Shown one piece after another: positions 1 through 22,740 of a stretch of DNA of 37,199 nt. The notes below the pieces were generated by a model. That model worked only from the letters and a program-made list of their open reading frames with translations. It had not been told where the DNA came from and made no database searches. The DNA is taken from IMG/VR virus record IMGVR_UViG_3300043397_000022, positions 1-37,199 of that record. One strand, written 5' to 3'. Within the stretch, counting starts at the first letter, position 1, and the number at the start of each line of letters is the position of its first letter. A program made the position numbers and the translations under genes. Origin of the DNA: a virus.

Positions 1-2020
1 TCCACCTGCGGTTAACAACGTGCCTGACATGAAGACCTTTAAACAGTCCGATACTGGTTGGGATAAAGACCAAGGCATTTGGGTATCCAACGACGAAGCA
101 TTTGAAAGTATTGCAACTATTGCACCTGCACACGAGCCATGGGCCCGTGGTGCCGGCAAGGGTGTTAAGAAATCTGCAAGCCAATTTGGTGCTGCACCTA
201 AGAACAGTAAACCTACTAGCGTTTGTGCGCCACCGGGTGCGCCAGCTGGGTCAGCTATTGGAAGCATGAATCCAAGCGGTGCAAACAATGAAGCAATCTT
301 AGAATCTGCATTAGGCGGTTATGGTATCACAGACAAGGTACAGTTTGCAGCTATTATGGCGCAGTGTGCCCACGAAAGTGGAAACTTCCAGTTCTTAAAA
401 GAACTAGGTGCTGACAGCTACTTCCAAAAATACGAAGGTCGTCAAGACTTAGGCAACAACCAACCAGGCGACGGTGTTAAATTTAAGGGCCGCGGCTTTA
501 TTCAAATTACCGGACGTGACATTTACACACGAGCCGGAGCATTCTTAAAAATTGACTTAGTTAACAATCCTCAGTTAGCTGAAGAGCCTGCAACAGCAGC
601 AAAGTTAGTATTGTTCTTCTTCTTTGAATACAAGAAGAGTCGCACAGCAAACTTAAACTGGGGTGATGTTACAGCAGTTACACGTTTAGTTAACGGTGGC
701 ACAAACGGTCTCAAAGATCGTGAAAACAAATACGCAGCCTATACGCAAAAGTATGCAAGCGGTGTAGTAACTTCTGGTAGTGGCGCTATTGTAACCACAG
801 GCAGCGGAGCACCTCTACAAACAGGAGCATCTCAACTTGATCCAGGTCCACAGTTGGCTAAAGGACAACCAGTTGTAAACCCTGCACCAGCAGAGTCAAT
901 GGGCAGACAGGATGCACCAAGTCCAGCAGCTATTGCAGCTATTGAAGACAAAATTCCAGGTCTAATTCCAACACAGGTCAAAGCACTGATGTTAGAAATT
1001 GGCTTTGCTGAAAGTCAGCTTGATTTTGCAGCACAAGATCAAACATTGGGACGCATTGGTCGTTACAAAGTTAATGGAAACATCTTGAAGTATTACGGTT
1101 ACCTTAAGCCAGACTACTTAACAAAGTTTGGTTCTGCGGCAGTGTTCCGTGATGACGCATACACTGGCAAAGACGGTATTACTAGCACACAAGCATTCTT
1201 AAGTGCAAAAGGCACACAAGACTCGCTAATGGAGTTGTTTATCAATGACTGCTACAAAGTACTGGTAAGCAACAAAGGTATCAAGCTCGACGATGACGTT
1301 TGTACTGTTGCTGGTATGCTGGCCGTTGCTTACTTCTTACGTGATAGTGAGCGTGGGTTAACATCGGGCCCACCACCTGATCAAGCTAAGTTCTGGAGAG
1401 AACAAGGTGCCAACATTAAAAACGCACAAGGTCAACAATGTGAAACAGCCTATAACCAAGGACGTTACGCAATTGATATTCTAAGCATTGCATCTAGTGG
1501 TACTACAGGTTCTGTTGCAAACTTTGCTCCGGCTACTGTAGACGTTAATCCAGATGATGTTATGAACTTTACTAACAGATCTGGTGACCGTACACACTTT
1601 GAAGCAGCCACAGTTGACTTTAAAGATCGCTTGTTGCAGGCAGCAAGAGACTACAAGGCACAAACTGGTAAGAAGATTACTATGAGCAGTACTGTTCGTA
1701 CACAAGAAGAACAGGATGGCATCTACAATGGATGGGTCTCAGCAGGTGGGCAGTTGCCTGGCAACCCTACTGTAAATGTAACACCGTATGGTAATATCAG
1801 TCGCCCTGTTAAGATTGTTGGCAATCACGGGTTGGGTATTGCAGCAGATATTGGTGTAGCAGATGCTATCGCAATGGAGCAAATGGGCATTTTGGCCAAG
1901 TACGGCCTATACAGATTTGATCCAAGCGGAGATCCTCCGCACGTTCAGATTAAACCTGAGCTTCGCCCTGCTAACTTGTCTACTATCCAGAGCTTGGGTA
2001 GCGGTACTAAAACTGGATAA
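1..2020 (+). CDS. Baseplate hub / tail lysozyme-like protein (gp5-like), three peptidoglycan-hydrolase-like regions, 5'-truncated
   Basis: The frame is open to base 2, so the start lies upstream; a GTG at 20 is only an internal codon, used here as residue 1. Three enzyme-like regions are visible. Residues ~85-245 resemble a GH19 chitinase/endolysin, with HESGNF (catalytic Glu 119) and GRGFIQITGR (157-166). Residues ~305-480 are a second helical, lysozyme/transglycosylase-like segment, less certain. Residues ~530-650 are an M15-type D,D-carboxypeptidase/endopeptidase, with HGLGIAAD and a later PPHVQ giving putative zinc ligands H603, D610 and H641. Low-complexity Ala/Pro/Gly/Ser linkers separate them. 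Position directly before gp25 and gp6 suggests the cell-puncturing hub protein, which cuts peptidoglycan during DNA injection. The OB-fold and beta-helix expected of T4 gp5 are not in the visible part, so a separate tail-associated hydrolase is the alternative. Confidence 0.75.
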   Translation, partial: PPAVNNVPDMKTFKQSDTGWDKDQGIWVSNDEAFESIATIAPAHEPWARGAGKGVKKSASQFGAAPKNSKPTSVCAPPGAPAGSAIGSMNPSGANNEAILESALGGYGITDKVQFAAIMAQCAHESGNFQFLKELGADSYFQKYEGRQDLGNNQPGDGVKFKGRGFIQITGRDIYTRAGAFLKIDLVNNPQLAEEPATAAKLVLFFFFEYKKSRTANLNWGDVTAVTRLVNGGTNGLKDRENKYAAYTQKYASGVVTSGSGAIVTTGSGAPLQTGASQLDPGPQLAKGQPVVNPAPAESMGRQDAPSPAAIAAIEDKIPGLIPTQVKALMLEIGFAESQLDFAAQDQTLGRIGRYKVNGNILKYYGYLKPDYLTKFGSAAVFRDDAYTGKDGITSTQAFLSAKGTQDSLMELFINDCYKVLVSNKGIKLDDDVCTVAGMLAVAYFLRDSERGLTSGPPPDQAKFWREQGANIKNAQGQQCETAYNQGRYAIDILSIASSGTTGSVANFAPATVDVNPDDVMNFTNRSGDRTHFEAATVDFKDRLLQAARDYKAQTGKKITMSSTVRTQEEQDGIYNGWVSAGGQLPGNPTVNVTPYGNISRPVKIVGNHGLGIAADIGVADAIAMEQMGILAKYGLYRFDPSGDPPHVQIKPELRPANLSTIQSLGSGTKTG

Positions 2021-2028
2021 ATATTGAT

Positions 2029-2403
2029 ATGGCAACTTACCGCGGGTTTAACACAATTGATCAATCTAAAAAGTTCAGATTAACAGATCTGGACTTGGTC
2101 AAACGCAACCTACTAAATCATTTTAAAATTCGCAAGGGCGAAAAACTAATGCAACCTAATTTTGGTAGCATTATTTGGAACACATTGTTTGAGCCCTTAA
2201 CTGAAGAAACTAAAAAGATTATCGTAGATGACGTTACTGCGGTAGTTGGATATGATCCACGTTTGATCATTGACGGAGTTATTATTCAGCAGTTGGATAG
2301 CGGACTACAGTTACAAATTAGCTTAACTTATAAGCCCGCTAACCTAACAACTACAATGAATTTAAACTTCGATAAGAACACCGAAACACTAACAGCGTCT
2401 TAA
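2029..2403 (+). CDS. 25: Baseplate wedge subunit gp25 (lysozyme-like fold)
   Basis: A 124-residue protein with the gp25/W family pattern: a charged N-terminal strand, then the conserved block RKGEKLMQPNFGSIIWNTLF followed by EPLTEETKK and a VGYDPRLIIDGV segment. In T4 and related contractile injection systems gp25 binds the sheath and the gp6 wedge core and helps start sheath assembly; the lysozyme-like label is historical. Length fits the family (T4 gp25 is 132 residues). The ATG at 2029 begins eight bases after the upstream stop codon, and gene 6 follows, the usual order in marine T4-like phages. No clear Shine-Dalgarno sequence is present, so translation may be coupled to the upstream gene. 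Confidence 0.93.
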   Translation: MATYRGFNTIDQSKKFRLTDLDLVKRNLLNHFKIRKGEKLMQPNFGSIIWNTLFEPLTEETKKIIVDDVTAVVGYDPRLIIDGVIIQQLDSGLQLQISLTYKPANLTTTMNLNFDKNTETLTAS

Positions 2404-2449: not shown

Positions 2450-5400
2450 ATGGCTACAACCACACGTCAAACAAGTTTATTGGTCCAACAGGATTGGACA
2501 AAATTGTATCAGACATTCCGTAACGCGGACTTCCAAAGCTACGATTACGAGACTCTACGCAAGTCAATGATTGACTATTTGCGTACATACTACCCAGAAG
2601 ATTTTAACGACTTTACTGAAAGCAGTGAATACATTGCTTTAATCGACTTGATTGCGTTTTTGGGCCAAAGTTTGGCGTTCCGCACAGACTTAAACAGTCG
2701 TGAAAACTTCCTAGACACAGCTGAACGTCGCGACAGTGTGCTAAAGCTAGCCCGCTTGATTAGCTACAATCCTAAGCGTAATATCCCTGCTAGCGGATAC
2801 TTGAAAATTGACAGTGTTAGCACAACTGAAACTATTGTAGACAGCAACGGGTTGAACTTGGCCAACTTGCTAATTACTTGGAACGATGCTGCTAACGAAA
2901 ACTGGCTAGAGCAATTTACCAGCGTCATGAACGCTACATTGGTAAGCAGCCAAGTTGTAGGCAAAGCTGGATCCAGCAATATTATCAACGGTATTTTAAA
3001 CGAAGAATACAGCGTTAACATTGTTCCCGGCGTTACTCCTGTTTACAAATTTAATGCTAGTATCGAAGGCATCAATATGCCGTTTGAGGCAGTTAGTGCA
3101 ACCAGCTATAACCAAACCTACGTATACGAAAAAGATCCAAAGCCAACAGGGGTGTTTAACTTGCTGGCCAAGAATGATAACCAAGGCAACGGATCTATTA
3201 ATACTGGTTTCTTTGTTTACTTTAAACAAGGTGAATTAAAGACCCTGGACTTTACACTCAACGATAGTTTACCTAACCGTGTAACAAACATTAACTTTGA
3301 TAACATCAACAACAATGACGTATGGTTGTATGGCTTAACAAGCCAAAACGTTCCTGGTGTTAAGTGGACTCAGATTCCTGCAATCGGTGGATTAAACGTT
3401 GTTTATAACCAAGAAAGCGAACGTAACTTATATCAAGTAAACACTCGCAGCAACGACCAAGTTGACTTGGTATTCGGCGATGGTGCGTTTGCAAACATTC
3501 CACAAGGTAACTTTAGACTTTACTATCGTCAAAGCAATGGACTAAGCTATAAAATCACTCCTGATGAAATGCAGGCTGTGAGCTTCACTATTAGCTATGT
3601 AAGTCGCAATAACAGAATCGAAACGCTAACTGTTCGTGCTAGCTTGAACTACACAGTTACAAACAGCAGCGCCAAAGAATCTATTAACGATATCCGCACA
3701 AAGGCACCTCAACAGTATTATACACAAAACCGTATGATTACTGGTGAGGACTATAACACCTTACCATACACTAGCTTTAACAACATTCTAAAAGTTAAAG
3801 CCGTTAACCGTGCAAGCTCGGGCATCAGCCGTTACCTTGATGTTATTGACAGCAGCGGAAAGTATTCTAGTACTAACATCTTTGGCGACGATGGTATGTT
3901 GTACAAGAACTATGACAATACCACTACGTCATTTACCTACACAACAGTTAACGAAGTAAACAAAGTTATCTTCAACGTTGCCAAGCCAATGGTTAGCAAA
4001 AAAGAAGTGTCGCACTTGTATTACGAAACTGCCACACGTTTTGTACCTAACACTACAGCAACATGGAATCAAAGTTCTGCAACAACCAATACCAGCACTG
4101 GCTTCTTTAACGCCGGCGTTAATATTGGTGTGGGTGCTACTGGAAATTACCAGTACATTACAATGGGTGCATTAATTAGATTTGTCCCACCATCTGGATA
4201 TTACTTTGACAAGAACAACCAATTGCAGCCAGGTGCAGCATCTTTGGTTACAGATAAAATGTATATCTATGCAAGCGTGGATTCAACATCGTCTCCGATG
4301 TTAACTGTTAGCCAGTTTATTCCTACTGGTGCAGTTGTTGAGTATATTATTCCTGTGTTTAAAAATGATTGGCCATCGTCATTGGTGTCAACTATTTCTT
4401 CACAGATTATGGCCAACAAGAACTTTGGCGTGCGTTATGATATTCCAACTATGACATGGACTATTATCAACAACATTAATCTATCGTTGGGTAGCTTTGA
4501 CTTAAGTACAGCGGGATCTAACAGCGACTCTAGCTGGTTCCTTGCATTCACATACAACAATGGTCAATACACTATTACTCAACGTAATTTGTATTACTAC
4601 ATCCAAAGCGTACTCGAAACTCGTTTCTACTTTGATCCTAAGACAAAGACTTACGATAGTACCACAGGCTTGATCCTAAAAGATCACATTAAGATTCTAC
4701 GAACAAACAGCAAGCCAGATAGTGCTGAACCATTAACAGTGGATCAGACTTGGTATGTATACGACAGTGTTATTCAACCAGATGGTTACCAAGATACACA
4801 AAAGATTTTGGTAACATTCCCTGACAATAACAATGATGGTATTCCTGATGATCCTTCATTGTTTGAAACTGTAGTGTCACCGAGCACTAACTCAAGCAGC
4901 AAATATGTATTCTTTAAACAAATTGTTGACTACAACAGTTTCATTAACTACACCGTAGTTGACACAGGTACCATTGTATCAACATATCCATCATTATCTG
5001 CAATCTCGTTGAATTCAGGATTGTACTTAGATGGACAAGTTTTCTATGCATACAGCGAAAACAATTTTTACATTTGGGCAAATGGGTTAATAACACAAAC
5101 CAGCGAGTATATTGCTAGAATTGGTCGTCAAGGTCTGCAATATCAATACCGCCACAACAGTCCAAACAACAGACGTATTGACCCAAGTCCAAACAACATC
5201 ATGGACTTGTATATTCTAACCAAGTCGTATAACACACAGTATACCGCATGGATTCGTGATACCAGCAACAAGGTTACTCAACCAGTTGCCCCTACCACTG
5301 AAGAATTGCGTACAGATTTTGGTACATTAGAAAACTTAAAGGCATTAAGTGACACCATCATTTATAACAGTGTTAAGTTTAAGCCAATCTTTGGCGCAAA

Positions 5401-5770
5401 GGCAGACTCAGTGTTGCAAGCAACATTTAAAATTGTAAAGAACCCTAACATTACTGTTAGTGACAACGACATCAAAGCACAGGTAGTATCAGCAATTAAC
5501 AATTACTTTGATATTACCAACTGGGACTTTGGTGAGAGTTTCTACTTCTCCGAATTAAGTGCATACCTACACAATAAATTAACTCCTAACGTTAGCAGTA
5601 TCATTATTGTTCCGAGTTCAAGCACTGCACAGTTCGGTGGATTGTATCAAATTAACGCAGAACCTAACGAAATTATTGTTAGTGCTGCAACAGTTGATAA
5701 TATTGAAATCATCAGTGCAATTACTGCGGCTCAATTGAACCAGACCGCAGCAGGGTTAAATATTGTATAA
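2450..5770 (+). CDS. 6: Baseplate wedge subunit gp6 (baseplate J-like), enlarged
   Basis: The first ~120 residues carry the gp6 signature: YETLRKSMIDYLRTYYPEDF, then ESSEYIALIDLIAFLGQSLA, then a LNSRENFLDTAERRDSVLKL block. The C-terminus (about 960-1060) has a second conserved stretch with KFKPIFGAK, an INNYFDITNWDFGESFYFSE segment and a terminal strand-rich domain. gp6 forms the inner iris ring of the baseplate together with gp25 and gp53. At 1106 residues it is far longer than T4 gp6 (660); the extra length lies in the middle, between the N-terminal helical region and the C-terminal J-like part, in beta-rich Asn/Thr/Ser-rich sequence. Marine T4-like phages often have enlarged wedge proteins. 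A late promoter octamer precedes it. Confidence 0.9.
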   Translation: MATTTRQTSLLVQQDWTKLYQTFRNADFQSYDYETLRKSMIDYLRTYYPEDFNDFTESSEYIALIDLIAFLGQSLAFRTDLNSRENFLDTAERRDSVLKLARLISYNPKRNIPASGYLKIDSVSTTETIVDSNGLNLANLLITWNDAANENWLEQFTSVMNATLVSSQVVGKAGSSNIINGILNEEYSVNIVPGVTPVYKFNASIEGINMPFEAVSATSYNQTYVYEKDPKPTGVFNLLAKNDNQGNGSINTGFFVYFKQGELKTLDFTLNDSLPNRVTNINFDNINNNDVWLYGLTSQNVPGVKWTQIPAIGGLNVVYNQESERNLYQVNTRSNDQVDLVFGDGAFANIPQGNFRLYYRQSNGLSYKITPDEMQAVSFTISYVSRNNRIETLTVRASLNYTVTNSSAKESINDIRTKAPQQYYTQNRMITGEDYNTLPYTSFNNILKVKAVNRASSGISRYLDVIDSSGKYSSTNIFGDDGMLYKNYDNTTTSFTYTTVNEVNKVIFNVAKPMVSKKEVSHLYYETATRFVPNTTATWNQSSATTNTSTGFFNAGVNIGVGATGNYQYITMGALIRFVPPSGYYFDKNNQLQPGAASLVTDKMYIYASVDSTSSPMLTVSQFIPTGAVVEYIIPVFKNDWPSSLVSTISSQIMANKNFGVRYDIPTMTWTIINNINLSLGSFDLSTAGSNSDSSWFLAFTYNNGQYTITQRNLYYYIQSVLETRFYFDPKTKTYDSTTGLILKDHIKILRTNSKPDSAEPLTVDQTWYVYDSVIQPDGYQDTQKILVTFPDNNNDGIPDDPSLFETVVSPSTNSSSKYVFFKQIVDYNSFINYTVVDTGTIVSTYPSLSAISLNSGLYLDGQVFYAYSENNFYIWANGLITQTSEYIARIGRQGLQYQYRHNSPNNRRIDPSPNNIMDLYILTKSYNTQYTAWIRDTSNKVTQPVAPTTEELRTDFGTLENLKALSDTIIYNSVKFKPIFGAKADSVLQATFKIVKNPNITVSDNDIKAQVVSAINNYFDITNWDFGESFYFSELSAYLHNKLTPNVSSIIIVPSSSTAQFGGLYQINAEPNEIIVSAATVDNIEIISAITAAQLNQTAAGLNIV

Positions 5771-5793: not shown

Positions 5794-8700
5794 ATGGCAG
5801 TTACAAAAACAATAAACTTTTTACCAGAGATTTTCCAAACCGACACGAACAGAAAATTTCTAAATGCAACATTAGATCAATTAGTTAGCGAGCCTAACTT
5901 CAAGAAGATCAATGGCTATATTGGTAGAAAGTTTGCGCCTACCTATAAGACCACAGACAGCTACGTTACAGAAGTTGATAGTTCTCGTCAAAACTATCAG
6001 CTAGAGCCTAGCACAGTTATTATCAATCCCGAAACTGATAATGTTGACTTCTATAGCAGCTACATTGACTTGATCAACAAGATCAAGTTTTACGGCGGCA
6101 ACGTTGACAACCACAGTCGCTTATTCTCTAACGAGATGTACAGCTACGATGGTAAGTTTGATTTTGATAAGTTTGTTAACTTCTCTCAATACTACTGGAT
6201 CCCAGAAGGTCCGTCTGAAGTATTGATTAGTGCAAGTAACGTACCAACTGAATACACCTGGGATGTAAACGTTGATCCTATTACTGGCGGATTTACATTC
6301 ACTGGCGCAGCAGGTACAGACACTAACCCTAACTTAACATTGGCATACGGTGGCCGTTACAAGTTTAACATTAACTCTGGTACATTCTGGATTCAGGCTG
6401 CACCTGGCGTTAGCGGCTTTGACCCTAACCACCCTAACATTAATGTACGTGAAGTTCTTGGCGTAAGCAATAACGGTGCCACATCGGGCACTGTTGAATT
6501 TATTGTACCACAACCAGACGGGCAATCTCGTTACACTGGTATGCCACGTGCATTACTTAACGATGTTCCAGTTTCTGTTGACTATGCAACAAAGTTAACC
6601 TATATTGACCTACAAGGCAAAACTGTTGACGAATTTATTGCAGCATTTGGCGGCCTTGATGGTGCCAGCGGCAACGTGCATGGTAAGAAAGTTATTTTTG
6701 TTGGATCTGACACAGACGATCAATTCTGGACCTTTAACAATGTTATGGTTCCATTCGCTGACAGAACTAAAACATGGTTAGTTGATGTTGATCAAAACAC
6801 AAACGTTATTAACCTAGTACCATCAGAAGTAATTAACAAGAACGAAAAAGTTTACATTAAGTCTGGTAGCACAAACGCTAGCAAGAACTTCTTTGTGGAC
6901 TACACAGGTTTTTATCAAGAAATTCCGTTGCTTACTGCACCGTTGACTGCCTTGTACTATCAAAACGGAACAAGTGGTCTTGGCGCTGGTATTGTATCGT
7001 TAGTTAACCCATCATCTGCAACCATTAACCCTGCTAAAGATATCGTTGGACAAAAGTCATACATTAGCCCCAACGGTGTTGTGTTTAGTAACGGCATGAA
7101 AGTTCGTTTCGACACAACCGCAGCAGGTGAGTATGCCAGCAATGTGTATTATGTTGAAGGCGTGGGCTCATCAATTAAGCTATTGCTAGTAGATGACTTG
7201 GTTGCAACAGAATTAGACAATTTAGAAACTCCTGACTATATTACTATCAACCGTAGTAGCATGGACGTTAACGCATGGAGCCGCAGTAACCGTTGGTTCC
7301 ACATTGATGTTTTAAATGCCACCGCCAAATACAACAACGAAGATTTGTTAGTTGATCAAACAATGCGAGCACGCCGCTCTATTATTGAATTCGATCCTAA
7401 CATTCGATTGTTTAACTATGGCGAAATGGCCAAGCGTCCAATTGATATACTAGACACTCTAGTAACAAACGCATACACACAAATTGAAAACCGTGGCACC
7501 ACTAATGCTGACACTATGTCAGTTACTATCGACGGTCAAACTTTAACACTAACCCACGGTGATAGAGTTATCTTCTCTAATGACTCAAGCCCGAGCGTTC
7601 GTACTAAAGTGTACACGTTTGAGATTGTTGACATTAGCGAAAACGCAAACATTAACCAATACATTGGTACCATTGTCGAAACTGACGATGCTCCTCTAGT
7701 TGCTGGTAATAACGTTCTAGTTAAAAGCGGATTAAACGCTAGAAAAGAATTCTGGTTTGATGGTACTACTTGGATCAGCAGCCAACAAAAGACCACAGTA
7801 AACCAACCACCTATGTTTGACATGTTCAACAGTGATGGTATTAGCTTTGGCGATTTAAACTATTACATTAACAGCAGCTTCCAAGGTACAAAGATCTTCT
7901 CGTACAAAGTAGGTAACGGTGCCAAGGATGCAGTGCTTGGTTTTCCACTAAGCTACAGAACATTTAATAACGTTGGTGACATCCAGTTTGAAAACAACTT
8001 TGATGTTGACACATTCACTTACTTGGTAAGCCCAACTACACAAACGGAAAATATTAACACCGGTTACTTGCACGTAACCACAGGTGAAGGTACACATGTT
8101 GAAAGTAACATCTGGACCAAGACTGTAGAAGACAGCAAACAATATCAGATTATTAACCACACAGCCGATGGTGTTAATAACCTATTTGAAATTGATATTT
8201 TGCCTAACCCAAGTGCTAACTTACCTAACGTTAAAGTGTTGGTAAACAGCAAGTTCATTGACATCAACAACTTTGGCCTAACACAAGTTGGCGCACGTTA
8301 CGCAGTGTTGATCAACCCAACTATCTTGGCCAAGGGTGACTCTGTTGACATTTTGATTTACAGCGAAAGCGTGAGCAAAATGGGGTATTTCCAAGTACCT
8401 GCAAACATTGACAATAACTCATTGAACCAGAACTTCTTGTTATTAACATTGGGTCAACTACGTAATCACTTAATTACCCTAAGCCAAAACAGCCAAGAAG
8501 TGCAAGGATTAGTTCCTGGCAATAGTAACCTACGTGACATTAAAATCAAGTCACAAGGTGGTAACATCTTAAAGCATGCTGCTCCTTTGGTATACAGCAA
8601 TTTGTTCTTAGTAGATCCTACTATGAACTTTGTTGAGTCAGCACGTCTTGCACAGCGTGAGTATTCTAAGTTTAAAAACAAAATCTTAGAATTAGCCACA

Positions 8701-11700
8701 CAAATTGAAATTGATGTCACTGATATTGCAGGGACATTGGACAAGATCCTAGCAACTATTAACGGTGTAAAGAATAAAAACTTTGCATGGTATTACAGCG
8801 ACATGGTGCCATGGGGTGCTAACAAAACTACACTACCATCATACACAATTCTTGATCCACGTATCCGTCGTTATGAATTAAGCAAGATTTTTAATGACAA
8901 GGTTCTAAGCAATCTTGCAGTGCTAGTATATCTAGAGCGTACAGCCAATGGCGTAACCACTAAGAAGTTATTGGTTAAAGACCGTGACTACACATTCAGC
9001 ACTGGTGGTCCAAGTATTACTATCCTTGATAGTTTTGACTTAAACTATGATGATGTGTTGACGGTTGTAGAATATAACAACACAGACGGTAACTATGTTC
9101 CAGAAACTCCGACTAAACTAGGGTTGTATCCTAAGTTTGTTCCTGAAATTTTAGTTGATGATACTTACTCAGTGGCTACTAGAGTTATTCAAGGTCACGA
9201 CGGTAGTATTACACCTGCATTCGGTGACTTCCGTGACGACATCTTGTTGGAATTTGAGCGTAGAATTTACAACAACATCAAACAAGAGTTTAAGCACGAC
9301 GACTTATACTCTCATGTTCCAGGACGTTTCCGTGTTACAGACTACAGCTTAAAAGAGTTTACACAAATTCTAAGCTCTAGCTTCCTAACTTGGGTAGGCA
9401 ACAATCGTTTAGACTACACATCAAACACTTATTTCCAAAGCAACAATCCTTGGACATGGAACTACAAAAACTTTAGAGATCGCTTAACTGGTGAATTCTT
9501 GCCAGGCGCATGGCGCTCAGTGTTTAAGTATTTCTACGATACAGATCGCCCTCATACACATCCATGGGAAATGCTAGGCTTCTCGGACCAACCTGATTGG
9601 TGGGAAGAGCGTTATGGGTCTGCACCATACACTGGCGGTAACATGGTATTGTGGACAGAATTAAGTCTTGGATACATCCATGCTGGTCCACGTGCAGGTA
9701 TTGATAAGCGTTTTGCTCGCCCTGGCTTGCTAAACGTTATTCCTGTTGACGAAACTGGTGCATTGCGTAGCCCTGAGAAGTTTGCAGTATTAGACTTTGA
9801 CAGCAACAACGCCAACGCTAGCTATGCTATTGGTGACCAAGGCCCAGTTGAAACAGCATGGCGCCGTAGCAGCGACTATCCATATGCATTGCAAATTGCA
9901 TTAGCATTAACTAAGCCAGCACACTACTTTGGTTCGTTGATTAACGTTGATCGTTTCAACTTAAACACCACATTGAACCAATATGTGGTGGACAGCACTA
10001 AACAACATATTACACCTACTGCTATTGAAGTAAACGGTTTTGTTGACTCTGGCTCTAATATTCATCGCACCGCAGGTTATATTAACTGGATCAGTGATTA
10101 CCTCAAGGGACTAGGTATTGGTGACCCACAAACTCTTATTAAGAAATACTTTAAGAACTTAAACGTTCAACTAAGTTACAAGGCCGCAGGCTTCACTGAT
10201 AAGCGTTATATTAGTTTGCTTGCCGAACAAGGTAGCCCGAACTCCACAGGTGAGAACATTATCATCCCTGATGGTAACTATCGTGTTGAGTTATACAAAT
10301 CTGTACCTGTAAACAAAATTGCTTACAGTGCTGTTATTGTTGAGCGTAGCCAAAATGGTTATACTGTTAGCGGATATAACCTAAGCAGCCCATATTTTAC
10401 CATTGTGCCGAGCATTGCAAATAACAGTGCCTATACAGTTACAGTGGGTAAAGCACGTGGTACAATCTACAAAGACTATCAAAAGATTCGTGTACGTATT
10501 CCTTACGGACATGAGTTTAACACAACTCAAGAAGTAGTCGACTTCTTGGTAAGCTACCAACGTCAACTACAAAGTCAAGGCTTTATTTTCACTGACTACG
10601 ATTATGATCTTGGACAAAAACAAGACTGGATCCTAAGTGCCAAAGAGTTTTTAACTTGGGCACAACAAGGTTGGCAAGCAGGCAACGTTATTATTCTTAG
10701 CCCAGTTAACCAATCTATTAATGTTAACCTAACCAACAGCGTAGTTGACGAAATTACAAACTTACCAACAGGCTCTAAATTACTAGATCCTAACTTCAAT
10801 GTGATTAAGAAGAGTAACTTCAGTGTATTGCGTGAAGACAACACATTTAAAGTTTCTACTATTAAGAATCAAACAATCACTTATGCAGAGTTGCATCAAG
10901 TTCAATATGAACACGTGATTATCATTGATAACAAGACTTCGTTTAATGATATTATCTACAGTCCAGATACTGGTAACCGTCAATTCCGTTTGAAGTTCAT
11001 TGGTAGCAAGACTGCTGATTGGACCGGCGCATTGAATCCAAGTGGCTTTATCTATAACAACAATGTTGTTGACGAATGGCAACCCGGTAAAGACTACAAA
11101 CAAGGTGACTTGGTTTCTTATAAGGCCAACTACTATGTTGCTCTAAGCAAAGTAACAGCCACCGAATTGTTTAATATTTCTAGCTGGAAACAAATCAACC
11201 AATCTAGTATTAAGACTGGTTTGTTGCCAAACTTTGCAACCAACGCAGCCAAGTTTGAAAACATTTACGATATTGATAACCAACCTACAGACGAAACTCT
11301 AAACTTCTATAGCAACGGCATTATTGGATTTAGAGAGCGTAACTATTTGACTGACTTGGCATTGGACATTGAAACTCAAGCCAAGTTCTATCAAGGTTAC
11401 ATCAAACAAAAAGGTACAAAGAACGCGATCCTTGCACTTGCACAAGCTCAACTAGCCAACATCAGTAACGAGATTACTGTTAGCGAAGAATGGGCACTTC
11501 GTGTAGGTGAGTATGGCGCCACAGACATCAACAAGTTTGTTGAAGTAGAACTAGATGAAGCAGTAATTACTGGTAACCCAACTACAGTTGAGTTCTTGGC
11601 AGCAGACCAAGAGTATACGTATGGCGTGCCACATTACTATCCAAGAGATTTATATCAAAGTTCGTTGAACTATAGCCCTACTATGTTTAACGATTACGTT

Positions 11701-14700
11701 AAAACTGCGGATAGTCCTGCATTACCAACCGCTGGCTACGTAAACCTTGATGACGTTGATGCAACCATCTTTGATATTGCAAACTACAGCAACCTTGGTG
11801 ATATCCTAAACAAAATTGGCACAGGATTTAAAATCTGGGCAGCTAAAGGCTTTAACGGTGACTGGGATGTTTACCGAGTAAGTGAAACTGAGTGCTTGGT
11901 TACTGCTATCAATTACAGCATTGATAACCTAGCAACTATTACAACCAATAACTATCACCAACTAAGTGTTGGCGACATTATTGCTATTAAACGTTTCGAT
12001 GATCGATTCGATGGTTTCTATCAAGTATACAGCGTCAACGGTATTAACCAATTTACAATTGGCCTAAGAAAGAACTATCAGATTCTAAGCCAATTGCAAT
12101 CTGTTAGCGGCAGCGGCGTCTTGTTTAAATTAACAAGTGCTAGACTTGATATTCCAAGCAACATTGACACAATTACTCCACAATACGGTTGGGTACAAGG
12201 TGACAAGGTTTGGGTTAACACACTAGACGCTGATAACAATTGGGGTGTTTATAATAAAACAAGCCCATGGGAAACATCTACTAAGATTTTCTTAAACAGC
12301 TCTGAATATAACGGAAGTGATAACTTCGGCCAAAGTATTAAGATTTCTGCAGATGGCAAAACAATGATTGCCGGCGCTCCAAACAGCAGAACTGGTCGTG
12401 CTGCTATTTTCTTAGAAACAGCAACCGGTGACTGGATTGAGAACAGTAACTTTGTTAACGCGAGCACTGGCACATTAGGATTTGGCTCAGTGGTTGAGTC
12501 TAATGCCCGTGCATTTATTATTGCTGCACCTAAGAGCAGCAGCAATCGCGGCTATGTGTTTGTTTACACTGTAGACGTTGCTAACGGTATTGCAGTCGGT
12601 CAAGTTATTGTCGCTCCTGATGGTGCATCTAGTGCTGGATTTGGTTCAAGCCTTGCAACAAGTGCAGATGGTAACTGGTTATACATTGGTGCTCCGGGCG
12701 CCGGCAAAGTTTATGCATACGGTTGGTTAACTACATCGAGCAGTACCCAGACATTATCTGCAACTGGCAGCAACCAAGTGTTTACATTGAACGCTTCAGT
12801 CGCTGATGCTAGCAGCATTTTAGTAACTGGGTCACAACCATATATTCCTTACATTGATTACACTGTAAGTGGCACGACCCTGACATTCGCTACTCCGCCA
12901 GCGGCAGGTACTATTCTAGTTGGCTCTCGCAGCCACTACACACTAATTGACACTTGGACCAAGAGCGATAACTTTGGTGTAAGTCTTGCAACCAACGATG
13001 CTGGAGACCAAATTGTTATTGGTGCTAACACTGCAACAGTAGGTGGTGTAGCTGGCGCCGGCAAAGGCTACGTATATGACCGAATGGTAGAAGGTTTTGT
13101 TGCCAATGGTATCAACAACACATTCATTCCAGTTCGTACAATTGGTGCTACACGCCGTGTTACTGCAAATAACATTGAACAGATTGAAAACATTGATTAC
13201 AAAATCAACGGTAACATTGTTCAGTTCATGGTTCCACCTGCATCTGGCACAACCATCGGTATTGAAACTAACCAATTTAACTTGATTCAGGAAGTGTTCA
13301 GTGCTACAGCCACAAACGGTCAAGGTTTTGGTACTACAGTTGAAATTAGCCCAGATACAACCACTCTATACTTTGGTGCTCCAAGCTATAGCTTGCCTTA
13401 TTACAGAAGCGGTGCGGTGTATCGTTTCACTAACCAAGGTCGACGCTACGGTTCTATTATTGGTACTGTTGCTAACCCAACTGTTACACCGGGTCACAGT
13501 ATTCGTGTAAACACTGTTGAAGTTAAATTCACTGAATCTAGCCTTGCACACGTTGTAAGTAAGATTAACGGTGCAGGTATTCCTGGTATTACAGCAAGCA
13601 TTGAAAATAATCACATTCAGATTACTTCTGCTCGAGTAACCAACTACTCAACTGTTGGTGCAATCACACACAATAACAAGCTAGACGTATTGCCTGGTAG
13701 CGGTGCAACACTTGCTCCTGGTTCTGGTACAGCTATTGCTGACTTGGGATTGATTATTTTTGTTCAAACTCAAACAATCACCCATCCATCAAGCAACGAG
13801 AACGAGTTCTTTGGTACCACATTGAGTATTGGCACAAACAATACAACACTAGCAATCGGTAGCGTTGGCGCTAAAACTATTAACGGCACAACCTTTGATA
13901 GCAGCGACACAACATTTGACGTTGGAAGTATTAACTTCAAGGACCCAATTGCAAACAGTGGTGCAGTTTATGTATACGACTTAATGGATAACCCATTTGA
14001 GTCAGTAGAAACTCCTGCATTGTTTGCGTATGTGCAACAGTTACAAGCACCTGACATCGGTGATAACTTTAACTTTGGTGCAGCCATTGACATTGTAGGC
14101 AACTACATTGCAGTAGCAGCAACTAACGATTATGCTATTGCAACAGCAGGCGGTAGCGTATACACATTTAGCAATCCTGGGTTAACACAAGGTTGGGACT
14201 TGATTCGTTTCAACCAACCTCGTGTTGAGCCTAACACCATTGACAAAGCATACATTTACAACAAACGTTCCAATGTAATTGGCGCTCGCCTAGATTACTT
14301 TGACCCAGTTAAGGGTAAATTGTTGGGCGTGGCTCAACAAGACTTGGACTTTATTGCAGATAGCGACCCTGCTATTTACAATGACAGTGCAAGCCCGGAC
14401 ACAGGGCCAAACAATAAGTTTGATTCTAGCTTCCATTGGACTAACTTGCAAGTTGGCAAGACATGGTGGGACACTAGCTTAATGCGTTATGTGGACTACG
14501 AGCAAAGCGACATTATCTATCGCGGTAAGCACTGGGGTGATCTATTCCCTGGTAGTGAGATTAAAGTATATGAGTGGGTCGAAAGCCAATGGCTACCAAG
14601 TCAATATGTTGCCCATGGTGGTGATGGCGTGCCTAAGTACGAAGATAACAGCTCATTTGTTAGCTACACCATTGTAGACTCTTCAACTGGTTTGTTTAAG

Positions 14701-17700
14701 ACCTTGTACTACTACTGGGTTGGTGATAAGTCTAGCGTGGATACTATCCAAACTGGTAGATCTACCAGCGTTAGCACATTGCAACAAATTATTGCATCAC
14801 CTAAGGATCAAGGTATTCCTTATATTGCTGCAATGAAGAGCAATACAGTTAACTTGTATAACATTGGTAGCTACTTAACTGGCACCGATGCGGTATTACA
14901 TATCTCTCACAGTCCTCTAAACAGCACTAACATCATTCACAGCGAGTATCAGTTAGTTGAAGAGAACGTTGACACTATTCCTGTGCCACACAGAATTGTT
15001 AATAAGCTACAGGACAGCTTGTCTGGACTAGACATGGCAGGATTGGTTGTACCTGATCCAACATTAAAGCCAGCAACACAAATTGGTATTGAGATTCGTC
15101 CACGCCAAAGCATGTTTGTGGAGCGTTTGTCTGCTCTTGAGAACTTTGTTAAGTTTGTTAACAGCGTATTAATTCAGTATCCGATCATCGACAGTCGTGA
15201 CACTTCTAAATTGTACGAAGGTTCACCGCAACCTGCGGCAGGAATCGGCGAGTGGGACTTGAAAATTAACACACGCAGCGAACTTGACTACATTAAAGCA
15301 TCTGACTTAACCGATGGATACAAAGTTTTAATTGACAAAGATTCTAACCATAATGATTTGTGGACAATCTTTACTTGGTCTACTGCTACTCAGAGCTGGA
15401 CACTAGTTAAAATTCAAAGTTACTCAACTCGTCTATATTGGGATTTAGTTGATTGGTATGCAAGCGACTTTGATTACACAATTAAGCCAACATATACAGT
15501 TGACCGCTATTATCAAATTGCAGCGTTAACACTCAAAGAAGGCGAAACTATTCATTTGAAGGATGATGGTGAAGGACGCTTTGTTGTTTACAGAGTTAAT
15601 GCTACCCTTGAGTTGGACAGAGTTGGTAGCCAAAACGGAACATTGCAGTTAAGCAGCAGCATCTATGACTTGGCAGCAGGCAACATGGCGTTTGATAACG
15701 ACAACTATGATACTGTTCGCTTCGACCAAAACCCGAACCAAGAAGTTCGTTACATCTTTGATGCAATTTACCAAGACATCTTTATTAAAGACATTAAGGT
15801 AGAGTTTAACAAGTTGTTCTTCAGCTTGGTTAACTACGTATTCAGTGAACAAAAGTCCACTGACTGGATCTTCAAGACCAGCTTTATTAGTGTATTGCAC
15901 AAGATTCGTAACTTGAGCCAGTATCCAAGCTACGTTAAGGATAACCAAACCTTCTACGAAGACTACATTAACGAAGTTAAACCATATCGTACACAAATTC
16001 GTGAGTACATTCCATTGTACAATGGCGTTGACTACTTGCATACAGGTGCAACAGACTTTGATGTACCGTCATACTACGACACAGTATCTAGCACATTCCG
16101 CAGTCCAAACGGCGATTATGCAACCGATGCAGAATTGCTAACAACTGCAAGTTATGCAGACTGGAATAACAATCACAAGTACAGCGTAGTTGAGATTGAA
16201 GTTGCTAGCGGCGGTACAGGTTATACCCTAACACCTAACGTTATCATCAGTGGTGGTGACGGGTCTGGTGTAGTTGCACATGCAACCATTAACAACACCT
16301 ACGGTAACATTGCCAGCGTTACAATCGTTAACCCAGGATCAGGATTTACTACTCCTCCGGTTATCACAGTAAACGGCAACGGCACCGGTGCAGTTCTTGT
16401 TCCTAAGTTGAAGAACGTATTCTACAAGACTTCACCTAGCGATAGCTACAATACAGTTCGTACATTTAATACCACTATCAAATTTGATAGAACTGGCTTT
16501 ACTAGCAAGGTAGTTGACTGGACACCTAACACGGCCTACGCAGGTTCTGTGACAGTTGGCACAGGCAACGGAAACGTTTGGCTGGCAAGTGGTACATTGG
16601 TTGCATACAATAACCAAATTTACTTGCCAGTTGATGCAAACGTTAACACCGAAGCTACGTTTGATTCTTCATTGTATGAGTTAATCAACGCTGGTAATGC
16701 GTTAATTAGTGCAAACGATCGAATCATGGGTTACTACAGCCCGGATCTAACTATGCCAGCTCGCAACTTGTCTAGTTTGATTGACGGTATTCAGTATCCT
16801 GGTGTAACTGTCACTGGTGTCAAGTTTGATGACTTTACCAGCAACGTTAACGTAGGTGCAAACATTGCGTTCTATAGTGCAAACTCTTCAATTAAGAGTA
16901 CAAACAGTGCTGTGAACTTCATTGAGTTGGGCTATGCGTTAAACCAGCAGCTAACAGTATTTGGTTCTGCAAACAATAACAATCGTTACGGTATTGTGCA
17001 AGTGTCCGAAGACACAATTATTGTAGATACCAGCACTATTGTTAACGAAGCAGCAGGAGCAAACGTTACATTACGCTATTTGGATTATAACGATCCTAAT
17101 AAGTTTGACAGTACTATCCAAAGTAGTTACTTGGACAGTGCATTAGGTACACGCCCTGAAGATATTAATATCGATGGTGGTGCGTATGTTGATACATTCA
17201 GCAGCCACGCCCCAGAAGAGTTGGTTCCGGGATGTGTTTACGACACCTTGAGCATGACAGTGTTTACAAAGATTGACAACGATGTTGTATTAGGTCACCG
17301 CATCTTCCAAAATATGCGTGGTGAAATTGAATACACACGTATTGCTGATGCAAATACCACTGAGCTAGCACAAGATTTGGCCCTAACCGATGCAACTATT
17401 GTGGTTACAGATGCAAGCAAGTTACCAGTACCAAACCCAACATTGGGCTTACCTGGTATTGTTTACATCAATGGTGAGAAAATCACATATTACACATATG
17501 ATGCTGAAACAAACACATTAGGTCAACTACGCCGCGGTGTAGATGGCACAGGTGCAGCAACATTACATACAGCAGGTAGCAGAGTTGTTGACGGAAGTAT
17601 GCAACAAAAACTACCAGGAACTCCGCACACTGAAACTTGGTTGAACATGACAGCCAACGTAGCAGATGGAACAGGCTTTAACGGCTCTACAACCAGCGAA

Positions 17701-17739
17701 GTGGCGTTCCTAAAACTTAGCCCAAGTTATAACCCATGA
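5794..17739 (+). CDS. Giant virion structural protein, probable baseplate wedge/tail component in the gp7 position
   Basis: This uninterrupted 3981-codon frame encodes one of the largest proteins expected in such phages. The N-terminus (TINFLPEIFQ, then NATLDQLVSEPNF and NGYIGRKFAPTYKTTDSYVT) and a Trp/His-rich core near residues 1230-1265 (PGAWRSVFKYFYDTDRPHTH) match, from memory, large structural proteins of marine T4-like phages. Modules seen: a possible CBM5/12-like sugar-binding motif at 1758-1802 (W1762 to W1798), a seven-bladed FG-GAP propeller at 2175-2797, Gly-rich beta repeats at 3470-3540 (SGGTGYT and NPGSGFTTPP), a second CBM-like motif near 3573-3615, and a beta-rich C-terminal module at about 3845-3940. 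Position after gp6 suggests the gp7/gp8 wedge role, but clear gp7 homology is not visible to me. It ends overlapping the upstream-most possible start of the next gene. Confidence 0.8.
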   Translation: MAVTKTINFLPEIFQTDTNRKFLNATLDQLVSEPNFKKINGYIGRKFAPTYKTTDSYVTEVDSSRQNYQLEPSTVIINPETDNVDFYSSYIDLINKIKFYGGNVDNHSRLFSNEMYSYDGKFDFDKFVNFSQYYWIPEGPSEVLISASNVPTEYTWDVNVDPITGGFTFTGAAGTDTNPNLTLAYGGRYKFNINSGTFWIQAAPGVSGFDPNHPNINVREVLGVSNNGATSGTVEFIVPQPDGQSRYTGMPRALLNDVPVSVDYATKLTYIDLQGKTVDEFIAAFGGLDGASGNVHGKKVIFVGSDTDDQFWTFNNVMVPFADRTKTWLVDVDQNTNVINLVPSEVINKNEKVYIKSGSTNASKNFFVDYTGFYQEIPLLTAPLTALYYQNGTSGLGAGIVSLVNPSSATINPAKDIVGQKSYISPNGVVFSNGMKVRFDTTAAGEYASNVYYVEGVGSSIKLLLVDDLVATELDNLETPDYITINRSSMDVNAWSRSNRWFHIDVLNATAKYNNEDLLVDQTMRARRSIIEFDPNIRLFNYGEMAKRPIDILDTLVTNAYTQIENRGTTNADTMSVTIDGQTLTLTHGDRVIFSNDSSPSVRTKVYTFEIVDISENANINQYIGTIVETDDAPLVAGNNVLVKSGLNARKEFWFDGTTWISSQQKTTVNQPPMFDMFNSDGISFGDLNYYINSSFQGTKIFSYKVGNGAKDAVLGFPLSYRTFNNVGDIQFENNFDVDTFTYLVSPTTQTENINTGYLHVTTGEGTHVESNIWTKTVEDSKQYQIINHTADGVNNLFEIDILPNPSANLPNVKVLVNSKFIDINNFGLTQVGARYAVLINPTILAKGDSVDILIYSESVSKMGYFQVPANIDNNSLNQNFLLLTLGQLRNHLITLSQNSQEVQGLVPGNSNLRDIKIKSQGGNILKHAAPLVYSNLFLVDPTMNFVESARLAQREYSKFKNKILELATQIEIDVTDIAGTLDKILATINGVKNKNFAWYYSDMVPWGANKTTLPSYTILDPRIRRYELSKIFNDKVLSNLAVLVYLERTANGVTTKKLLVKDRDYTFSTGGPSITILDSFDLNYDDVLTVVEYNNTDGNYVPETPTKLGLYPKFVPEILVDDTYSVATRVIQGHDGSITPAFGDFRDDILLEFERRIYNNIKQEFKHDDLYSHVPGRFRVTDYSLKEFTQILSSSFLTWVGNNRLDYTSNTYFQSNNPWTWNYKNFRDRLTGEFLPGAWRSVFKYFYDTDRPHTHPWEMLGFSDQPDWWEERYGSAPYTGGNMVLWTELSLGYIHAGPRAGIDKRFARPGLLNVIPVDETGALRSPEKFAVLDFDSNNANASYAIGDQGPVETAWRRSSDYPYALQIALALTKPAHYFGSLINVDRFNLNTTLNQYVVDSTKQHITPTAIEVNGFVDSGSNIHRTAGYINWISDYLKGLGIGDPQTLIKKYFKNLNVQLSYKAAGFTDKRYISLLAEQGSPNSTGENIIIPDGNYRVELYKSVPVNKIAYSAVIVERSQNGYTVSGYNLSSPYFTIVPSIANNSAYTVTVGKARGTIYKDYQKIRVRIPYGHEFNTTQEVVDFLVSYQRQLQSQGFIFTDYDYDLGQKQDWILSAKEFLTWAQQGWQAGNVIILSPVNQSINVNLTNSVVDEITNLPTGSKLLDPNFNVIKKSNFSVLREDNTFKVSTIKNQTITYAELHQVQYEHVIIIDNKTSFNDIIYSPDTGNRQFRLKFIGSKTADWTGALNPSGFIYNNNVVDEWQPGKDYKQGDLVSYKANYYVALSKVTATELFNISSWKQINQSSIKTGLLPNFATNAAKFENIYDIDNQPTDETLNFYSNGIIGFRERNYLTDLALDIETQAKFYQGYIKQKGTKNAILALAQAQLANISNEITVSEEWALRVGEYGATDINKFVEVELDEAVITGNPTTVEFLAADQEYTYGVPHYYPRDLYQSSLNYSPTMFNDYVKTADSPALPTAGYVNLDDVDATIFDIANYSNLGDILNKIGTGFKIWAAKGFNGDWDVYRVSETECLVTAINYSIDNLATITTNNYHQLSVGDIIAIKRFDDRFDGFYQVYSVNGINQFTIGLRKNYQILSQLQSVSGSGVLFKLTSARLDIPSNIDTITPQYGWVQGDKVWVNTLDADNNWGVYNKTSPWETSTKIFLNSSEYNGSDNFGQSIKISADGKTMIAGAPNSRTGRAAIFLETATGDWIENSNFVNASTGTLGFGSVVESNARAFIIAAPKSSSNRGYVFVYTVDVANGIAVGQVIVAPDGASSAGFGSSLATSADGNWLYIGAPGAGKVYAYGWLTTSSSTQTLSATGSNQVFTLNASVADASSILVTGSQPYIPYIDYTVSGTTLTFATPPAAGTILVGSRSHYTLIDTWTKSDNFGVSLATNDAGDQIVIGANTATVGGVAGAGKGYVYDRMVEGFVANGINNTFIPVRTIGATRRVTANNIEQIENIDYKINGNIVQFMVPPASGTTIGIETNQFNLIQEVFSATATNGQGFGTTVEISPDTTTLYFGAPSYSLPYYRSGAVYRFTNQGRRYGSIIGTVANPTVTPGHSIRVNTVEVKFTESSLAHVVSKINGAGIPGITASIENNHIQITSARVTNYSTVGAITHNNKLDVLPGSGATLAPGSGTAIADLGLIIFVQTQTITHPSSNENEFFGTTLSIGTNNTTLAIGSVGAKTINGTTFDSSDTTFDVGSINFKDPIANSGAVYVYDLMDNPFESVETPALFAYVQQLQAPDIGDNFNFGAAIDIVGNYIAVAATNDYAIATAGGSVYTFSNPGLTQGWDLIRFNQPRVEPNTIDKAYIYNKRSNVIGARLDYFDPVKGKLLGVAQQDLDFIADSDPAIYNDSASPDTGPNNKFDSSFHWTNLQVGKTWWDTSLMRYVDYEQSDIIYRGKHWGDLFPGSEIKVYEWVESQWLPSQYVAHGGDGVPKYEDNSSFVSYTIVDSSTGLFKTLYYYWVGDKSSVDTIQTGRSTSVSTLQQIIASPKDQGIPYIAAMKSNTVNLYNIGSYLTGTDAVLHISHSPLNSTNIIHSEYQLVEENVDTIPVPHRIVNKLQDSLSGLDMAGLVVPDPTLKPATQIGIEIRPRQSMFVERLSALENFVKFVNSVLIQYPIIDSRDTSKLYEGSPQPAAGIGEWDLKINTRSELDYIKASDLTDGYKVLIDKDSNHNDLWTIFTWSTATQSWTLVKIQSYSTRLYWDLVDWYASDFDYTIKPTYTVDRYYQIAALTLKEGETIHLKDDGEGRFVVYRVNATLELDRVGSQNGTLQLSSSIYDLAAGNMAFDNDNYDTVRFDQNPNQEVRYIFDAIYQDIFIKDIKVEFNKLFFSLVNYVFSEQKSTDWIFKTSFISVLHKIRNLSQYPSYVKDNQTFYEDYINEVKPYRTQIREYIPLYNGVDYLHTGATDFDVPSYYDTVSSTFRSPNGDYATDAELLTTASYADWNNNHKYSVVEIEVASGGTGYTLTPNVIISGGDGSGVVAHATINNTYGNIASVTIVNPGSGFTTPPVITVNGNGTGAVLVPKLKNVFYKTSPSDSYNTVRTFNTTIKFDRTGFTSKVVDWTPNTAYAGSVTVGTGNGNVWLASGTLVAYNNQIYLPVDANVNTEATFDSSLYELINAGNALISANDRIMGYYSPDLTMPARNLSSLIDGIQYPGVTVTGVKFDDFTSNVNVGANIAFYSANSSIKSTNSAVNFIELGYALNQQLTVFGSANNNNRYGIVQVSEDTIIVDTSTIVNEAAGANVTLRYLDYNDPNKFDSTIQSSYLDSALGTRPEDINIDGGAYVDTFSSHAPEELVPGCVYDTLSMTVFTKIDNDVVLGHRIFQNMRGEIEYTRIADANTTELAQDLALTDATIVVTDASKLPVPNPTLGLPGIVYINGEKITYYTYDAETNTLGQLRRGVDGTGAATLHTAGSRVVDGSMQQKLPGTPHTETWLNMTANVADGTGFNGSTTSEVAFLKLSPSYNP
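12301..14190 (+). repeat. Seven FG-GAP-like propeller repeats inside the giant structural protein
   Basis: Residues ~2175-2797 contain seven units of the form (N/G)FG, four or five residues, a strand, then an I/L-x-I-G/A-A/S turn and an aromatic strand such as GYVFVY or GAVYVYD. Starts I can place are DNFGQSI, LGFGSVV, AGFGSSL, DNFGVSL, QGFGTTV, EFFGTTL and FNFGAAI. Units three, four and five carry inserted beta modules (for example one ending FATPPAAGTILVG). The family is the integrin-alpha type beta-propeller, and seven units would close one complete propeller. The canonical Ca-binding DxDxDG loop is mostly not evident, so the metal sites of classical FG-GAP domains may be missing. Confidence 0.75.
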
Positions 17740-19874: not shown

Positions 19875-19883
19875 GGATCCACA

Positions 19884-21224: not shown

Positions 21225-21236
21225 TAGGTATTTTTG

Positions 21237-21244
21237 GGTAAATA
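21237..21244 (+). promoter_or_regulatory. Possible late promoter GGTAAATA within a small hairpin
   Basis: GGTAAATA has one mismatch to NATAAATA and lies 19 nt before the ATG at 21264, the spacing seen at the better sites. A 6-bp inverted repeat (GTATTT at 21228-21233 and AAATAC at 21240-21245) overlaps it, which would fold in a read-through transcript. With no T-run it is not a convincing terminator. Confidence 0.45.
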
Positions 21245-21263
21245 CTAGAATACCGGAACAGTT

Positions 21264-22697: not shown

Positions 22698-22712
22698 CCG
22701 TGGAAAATAACC

Positions 22713-22720
22713 GATAAATA
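22713..22720 (+). promoter_or_regulatory. T4-like late promoter octamer GATAAATA
   Basis: GATAAATA fits NATAAATA and lies in the 43-bp gap before the third fibre paralogue, 20 nt ahead of its ATG. An AGG at 22731 offers only a weak ribosome-binding site. Confidence 0.65.
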
Positions 22721-22740
22721 ACTAATAATCAGGTAACAGA

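Follow-up and report, generated by a model that had tools for sequence, protein, structure and literature searches.

A giant protein of 3,981 residues, encoded at the position of gene 7 in a T4-like baseplate locus, was found to carry, inserted at one site, a domain that profile matches and structure prediction identify as a seven-bladed FG-GAP propeller of the integrin type. The window analyzed here (37,199 bases) comprises an entire IMG/VR virus record. We estimate at roughly 45% the probability that the scaffold of this protein sits in the baseplate and that the propeller, exposed as an accessory and bearing its variable loop domains on one face, meets the surface of the host. In broader terms, the propeller is probably a removable surface module that either grips the host or holds tail fibers, since most of the relatives examined carry it and some have lost or exchanged it.

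A giant protein in a T4-like baseplate locus

The open reading frame at 5794-17739 (plus strand) is intact from its ATG to its stop codon, and a homologue in relative L002 is likewise 3,981 residues long and 93% identical over its full length, arguing that this size is no accident of assembly. Genes for a hub/tail-lysozyme-like protein and for gp25- and gp6-like wedge subunits precede it in this order, which places the giant protein where gp7 is encoded in T4:

20..2020, plus strand: baseplate hub/tail lysozyme-like protein with a GH19-like domain (profile matches)
2029..2403, plus strand: gp25-like baseplate wedge subunit (profile match)
2450..5770, plus strand: gp6-like baseplate wedge subunit (phrog_10646, 4.6e-299; phrog_219, 4.3e-27)
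5794..17739, plus strand: the giant gene itself, coding for a 3981-aa virion protein assigned to phrog_10938 ('virion structural protein') and lying in the place of gp7 in a T4-like wedge operon
5794..6228, plus strand: conserved N-terminal domain, residues 1-145, kept across the whole family (no match to T4 gp7 or to a PDB chain)
9076..11058, plus strand: most conserved core, residues 1095-1755, with the PWEMLGF block (conservation among relatives)
11866..12183, plus strand: predicted small beta-barrel before the propeller, residues 2025-2130 (AlphaFold2 model; endosialidase-barrel-like in relative L003)
14206..16083, plus strand: conserved region past the propeller, residues 2805-3430 (conservation among relatives)
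16183..16404, plus strand: Gly-rich repeats, residues 3464-3537 (phrog_460 match)

Seven cultured jumbo phages, namely Phosso, Atu_ph07, PA5oct, SCTP-2, RaK2, GAP32 and Vibrio phage 2.275.O, encode homologues of the giant protein at this position, the gene preceding the giant one carrying no gp6 annotation in SCTP-2 and Vibrio phage 2.275.O. The protein is present in at least about 590 relatives, hundreds of them uncultured phages, and homologues other than that of L002 are 24-48% identical in the joint alignment. With the PA5oct/RaK2-type giant virion protein (phrog_10938) the window protein shares both the conserved core and the place right after gp25-gp6, and ESI-MS/MS detection is on record for the homologue in PA5oct. 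The locus and the homologues at the same position thus bear out the initial annotation in its reading of the gene product as a structural protein of the baseplate.

T4 gp7 builds the core bundle of the wedge together with two copies of gp6. Profile comparison with five gp7 sequences revealed no similarity in any region of the giant protein (hhalign probability <=0.5%), and homology to T4 gp7 was therefore rejected; the giant protein may work like a gp7-position wedge scaffold, its likeness to gp7 being one of gene position only. No PDB relatives were found for the N-terminal domain, nor, at E<=1e-3, for the modeled residues 950-2024, and a PDB sequence search returned no structure of any member of the family.

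Cyanophage S-RSM4 gp151 (3515 aa; phrog_4406) likewise stands in a gp25-gp6-giant-gp8 order and is built of modular beta domains with a Gly-rich repeat, but it is devoid of FG-GAP blades and has no common core with the window protein in profile comparison. Pelagi- and cyanomyophages were reported to have no gp7, whose place VrlC apparently takes (PMC7029224). Neither the cyanophage giant at the gp7 position nor VrlC was accepted as a relative of the window protein, repeat modules alone being in common. The Gly-rich beta repeats, originally placed at residues 3470-3540 as possible ligand surfaces, were indeed present (3464-3537) and turned out to be a widespread phage module, matching phrog_460 at 3445-3560 and recurring in the cyanophage giant protein.

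The hub/tail-lysozyme-like protein itself includes a chitinase-like domain of the GH19 type, with matches to phrog_181 (3e-44) and to Pfam GH19 (1.8e-5, slightly below the cut-off). In T4, gp5 carries its lysozyme at the corresponding place.

A predicted seven-bladed propeller and its loop insertions

The propeller, its blades and their main loops map to the window as follows:

12307..14202, plus strand: whole propeller, predicted to have seven integrin-type FG-GAP blades, residues 2172-2803, with VYNK (about 2152-2156) and W2801 on either side of the insertion (profiles, AlphaFold2, Foldseek)
12307..12414, plus strand: blade 1, residues 2172-2207 (this and all other blades: family blade HMM, DSSP of the model)
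12463..12570, plus strand: blade 2, residues 2224-2259
12619..12720, plus strand: blade 3, residues 2276-2309
12736..12933, plus strand: blade 3 c-d loop insertion, PPAAGT-type beta domain (alignment, AlphaFold2 model; 23-221 aa in relatives)
12961..13086, plus strand: blade 4, residues 2390-2431
13087..13263, plus strand: blade 4 c-d loop insertion, PPASGT-type beta domain (alignment, AlphaFold2 model; 25-119 aa in relatives)
13309..13437, plus strand: blade 5, residues 2506-2548
13447..13758, plus strand: blade 5 c-d loop insertion of a different type, with an IPGITA motif (alignment, AlphaFold2 model; 28-240 aa in relatives)
13792..13986, plus strand: blade 6 with a long b-c loop, residues 2667-2731 (two HMM pieces)
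13897..13920, plus strand: conserved acids D2702 and D2709 (TTFD..TTFD) in the blade 6 b-c loop (conservation in relatives)
14053..14175, plus strand: blade 7, residues 2754-2794

Searched with the whole protein, Pfam FG-GAP_2 gave a match above its cut-off (9.4e-12), and all seven blades were detected by the family blade HMM with scores of 12.9-44 bits, whereas none of 200 shuffled copies scored above 5.1 bits. On sequence alone, a profile built from 51 slots found integrin alpha chains among the PDB entries (alpha-4, 4.6e-13; alpha-6, 2.1e-9; alpha-M, 1e-8; alpha-IIb, 1.1e-7). AlphaFold2 modeled residues 2004-2825 with a mean pLDDT of 87.7 and a pTM of 0.85, and DSSP assigned four strands to each blade. 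The top Foldseek matches of this model were to integrin alpha-5 (7.8e-11 and 1.1e-10), with a TM on the target of 0.63 in the case of 4wjk, and the seven-bladed CIAO1 was matched with a TM of 0.75 on the target. By profile and predicted fold, the domain is thus a complete seven-bladed FG-GAP/integrin-type propeller, as its seven FG-GAP-like units had first led the annotation to claim; the structural matches point to a closed ring of four-stranded blades, and the segmented prediction with fold comparison yielded no separate beta-sandwiches.

The integrin alpha propeller likewise consists of seven FG-GAP blades with extra loop domains and provided both the best profile and the best structural matches, but integrin alpha is a receptor subunit bearing a calcium motif, whereas the window propeller is a domain of a 3,981-residue phage virion protein devoid of it. 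The motif D-x-[DN]-x-[DNS]-[GN]-x-x-D was absent from the window protein and found in one of 131 family slots. Membership among integrin alpha subunits was rejected on this ground and because the gene belongs to a phage baseplate locus and does not encode a membrane receptor pairing with a beta subunit.

The large insertions sit after strand c, between strands c and d, in blades 3, 4 and 5. All three had been described as similar in type, and all three are present, but the DY..PP[AS]xGT signature is confined to the insertions of blades 3 and 4 (PPAAGT at 2368 and PPASGT at 2481). In propellers generally, the c-d loops of neighboring blades lie on one face of the disc, and the insertions of blades 3-5 would therefore be expected on one face. 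It is at these three blades that insertion length varies most within the propeller. Conserved positions are mostly structural Gly, Phe and Pro, the acids of blade 6 excepted: D2709 was found in 51/51 rows and D2702 in 98% of rows, in a loop modeled by AlphaFold2 with low confidence. The near-invariance of this pair would suit a fixed partner or a metal better than a changing receptor.

Insertion, absence and divergence of the propeller

The slot that holds the propeller spans residues about 2010-2830 and is bounded on both sides by conserved blocks. FG-GAP blades were detected in 131 of 158 distinct slots and none in the other 27, a proportion that is no frequency as this set includes loci retrieved with a propeller query. 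Exactly seven blades were detected in 63 of the 131 bladed slots, six in 49 and eight in 14. Among 124 distinct relatives retrieved by the conserved core alone (the best-scoring 80 per search, of at least about 590), the propeller was present in 103 and absent from 21; it was absent from every cultured member examined. In the core tree, a supported branch separated 20 rows without the propeller, among them every cultured phage in the tree, from 110 rows with it and 5 without, and presence or absence required a minimum of five changes.

Compared with L066 and L051, two relatives (L058 and L065) are missing precisely the propeller, with 2-3 residues in its stead between VYTY and a W..TR.Q motif; where the propeller is cleanly absent in this way, the flanking sequence is otherwise unchanged. 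In two others (L073 and L074), a YHYH domain stands at the propeller site (3.7e-29 and 6.1e-31; L073:6213-8330 and L074:2879-4309), with a further stretch behind it in L073. YHYH is a predicted metal-dependent, tail-associated hydrolase (PMC7824862). Throughout the fetched IMG/VR loci, blades were confined to ORFs with the core of the giant protein, except for two shorter ORFs, in L120 and L273, that resemble fragments of this protein. On the evidence of these sequences, the propeller is a plug-in module at one fixed site, and to the question whether it is present in near relatives or inserted the answer is both: an inserted module, carried by most of the uncultured clade. Prokaryote genomes searched for a clue to the host yielded nothing but contigs from MAGs of mixed kinds, most of them marine. 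Two contigs of one marine Neomarinimicrobiota MAG (L300 and L304) encode giant proteins of 4715 aa with diverged or partial FG-GAP signals and are probably jumbo-phage contigs binned into the MAG.

The exchange of the propeller for a YHYH domain in two relatives raised the possibility that the propeller is itself an enzyme, or the remnant of one, acting on polymers of the cell envelope. Propellers do include many glycan-active enzymes. The propeller matched integrin alpha chains here and no propeller of a glycosidase or lyase. No catalytic signature was identified, the conserved positions are structural for the most part apart from the blade 6 acids, and we consider this explanation very improbable.

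Pairwise distances between propellers correlated with those of the rest of the protein (r 0.78-0.88), indicating that inheritance of the propeller was mostly vertical; free recombination was not supported, the correlation being as good as that of the flanking regions. The propeller diverges faster than the scaffold, 47% of its positions differing between near pairs vs 29-37% elsewhere. Between the window and L002, dN/dS was 0.04 in the propeller and 0.02-0.05 elsewhere, with dS near saturation in places; no positive selection was seen in this one comparison, and the values indicate purifying selection throughout the giant protein. Such selection would suit a mere structural spacer, filling or stiffening an enlarged baseplate without any ligand, as would the rigidity of propellers and the integration of this one in a single polypeptide. 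The clean absence of the domain with no other change in its flanks, its replacement by an unrelated domain and the variable insertions of neighboring blades argue to the contrary and make a spacer improbable.

Host-range determinants often show free exchange or positive selection. The vertical inheritance of the propeller and its dN/dS of 0.04, with neither of these features, thus count against host contact, as do the nearly invariant D2702 and D2709, the missing integrin calcium motif and the existence of separate tail-fiber genes, which lie directly after the giant gene (18408-24282). The near-invariant loop, the mainly vertical inheritance and the adjacent fiber genes would rather suit a fixed internal partner, the propeller and its loop insertions then serving as a docking platform for tail fibers or a peripheral baseplate protein with no binding of a receptor. 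There is a precedent in SU10, where a seven-bladed nozzle propeller docks the short tail fibers by one loop and the tail needle by others (PMC9509320). We take a docking platform to be a serious rival but nonetheless less likely than host contact, in that the insertions vary widely in size and that any such partner must be dispensable, or have changed too, in the relatives that cleanly lack the propeller and in the two that carry YHYH.

Putative sugar-binding modules, precedents and possible role

Outside the propeller, candidate sugar-binding modules were located at two places in the giant protein:

11068..11202, plus strand: CBM5/12-like (chitin-binding type 3) module, residues 1759-1803 (family HMM, 65.7 bits; Pfam in relatives; Foldseek)
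16507..16686, plus strand: weak second CBM5/12-like motif, residues 3572-3631 (5.2 bits; Pfam matches in 16/43 relatives)

Both had been predicted from the start, near residues 1762 and 3576, and the first proved solid, its score of 65.7 bits comparing with a maximum of 2.6 in shuffles; the second was weak, at 5.2 bits in the window and split by about 16 residues. The Pfam CBM5/12 match to the first module is below threshold in the window (0.005) and reaches 1.8e-9 in relative L004, and the motif, written as a regular expression, was found in 126 of 158 relatives. Foldseek recovered chitin-binding domains among its local matches (rmsd 1.8 A to 2d49; 31% identity to 4tx8), with E-values of ~0.1 for a large multidomain query. 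By profile and predicted fold, the module at 1759-1803 thus belongs to the CBM5/12 family, with putative binding of chitin or some other polysaccharide. Baseplate chains of phage Milano were also among the local matches, suggesting that CBM-like modules may not be unusual in baseplates. Toward the C-terminus, segments from the family carried CBM5/12 in 16 of 43 cases, a lactonase/SGL-type propeller in 2 and a mannose-lectin domain in 1, a diversity that marks this region, by profile, as a further site for accessory domains. In relative L003 (L003:3044-16960), such a second propeller, of the lactonase type (PF10282, 4e-8), is inserted close to the place that corresponds to residue 3594 of the window protein, in addition to the FG-GAP one.

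Integrin-type propellers were unfamiliar in phage baseplates to the initial annotation; propellers as such are known there, as in phiKZ gp131C and the receptor-binding protein (RBP) of phi11, and P2 of PRD1 is another propeller engaged in phage adsorption (PMC4901313). gp131C of phiKZ (4GBF) is, like the window domain, a seven-bladed propeller of a jumbo-phage baseplate, where it lies at the periphery with a proposed but unproved role in receptor binding (PMC4901313), but gp131 is a separate protein and not an insertion in a wedge-position giant, and 4GBF was not matched by the profile of the window-family slots at E<=10 in the PDB sequence-profile search alone. The phi11 and 80alpha RBPs likewise place a propeller in a baseplate adhesin, whose platform was suggested to bind the GlcNAc of wall teichoic acid (PMC4901313, PMC7048315); theirs is five-bladed (PMC4901313), not of the FG-GAP type, and part of a trimeric RBP with a stem and a tower. 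Nozzle propellers of SU10 and T7 are also propellers of phage tails, with insertions between blades and docking of fibers in SU10 (PMC9509320), but the nozzle is a component of the tail channel in short-tailed phages, which have no contractile baseplate.

Propellers of the same class as that of the window occur in other viral FG-GAP proteins (the 'hemagglutinin' of Atu_ph07, H6WG31 of S-TIM5, giant ORFs of Phosso and proteins of giant viruses of eukaryotes). These are separate proteins, without insertion in a gp7-position baseplate protein, whereas the window propeller is an insertion within the giant wedge-position protein. The FG-GAP profile gave 55 matches in Phosso and also matched the separate 'hemagglutinin' of Atu_ph07. 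In Phosso (Sinorhizobium phage, L294), two ORFs of >3100 and >3600 aa, annotated as hypothetical, are packed with FG-GAP repeats (48338-68978 of that phage's record), and two smaller FG-GAP ORFs lie at 92124-94532 of the record, in a stretch where a minor tail protein is also encoded. A tblastn search of 50,697 phage records with the window propeller, a single divergent and thus insensitive query, returned no match. A review of jumbo phages places YHYH on tail and baseplate proteins and makes no mention of FG-GAP, integrin or propeller (PMC7824862), and no description of an integrin/FG-GAP propeller inside a baseplate wedge-position protein was found in the open-licence papers searched. Thus, a propeller in a baseplate is of a known kind, the integrin/FG-GAP subtype at the wedge position being new among the literature searched.

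In the reading that we favor, contact of an exposed propeller with the host, the giant protein would be a baseplate wedge-position protein of a T4-like jumbo phage clade, whose scaffold (residues 1-145, about 400-2030 and 2805-3430) builds the baseplate and has received accessory beta domains as insertions. An FG-GAP propeller would have entered at one permissive site (about 2156 to 2801), become fixed in a large uncultured clade and since then been inherited mostly vertically, diverging faster than the scaffold, with occasional loss or replacement. On the virion it would most likely protrude from the rim of the baseplate and contact the host envelope during adsorption, the ligand being a glycan or a surface protein, mainly through the size-variable c-d loop domains that blades 3-5 would present on one face; the CBM5/12-like module might add a weak affinity for carbohydrate, by which the giant protein could also recognize host glycans. 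Host contact is favored by the faster divergence of the propeller and the variable lengths of its insertions, a behavior of the ligand-binding type, by the other site of the same proteins, which in some members holds CBM5/12, a lactonase-type propeller or a mannose-lectin, and by the precedents of the phi11 RBP and phiKZ gp131C. More tentatively, the uncultured jumbo clade as a whole may use an integrin-type propeller in its wedge-position protein for host adhesion, as part of a rim of exchangeable domains (propeller, YHYH, lectins) set at fixed sites on one scaffold.

Laboratory phages do not show this domain, the cultured members of the family that were examined being without the propeller. 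The insertion site is exactly defined, the natural propeller-free and YHYH versions can serve as controls, and the domain is self-contained and suited to direct tests of binding and structure, either as residues 2004-2825 of the window protein or in the compact form found in L066. Were the propeller to bind the host, animal integrins and a phage injection machine would have an adhesin fold in common.

Two further observations concern the downstream part of the window. Five radical SAM genes, each with CxxxCxxC, stand in a row at 29256-35773, several with an N-terminal SPASM-type domain before the radical SAM domain; in Phosso and Atu_ph07, too, radical SAM genes come after those for the tail, which makes this a recurrent cluster beside the tail operon. 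The last ORF (36833-37198) is truncated and begins with MIIAAGDSFVYGSE, a start that by eye resembles that of a GDSL/SGNH hydrolase.
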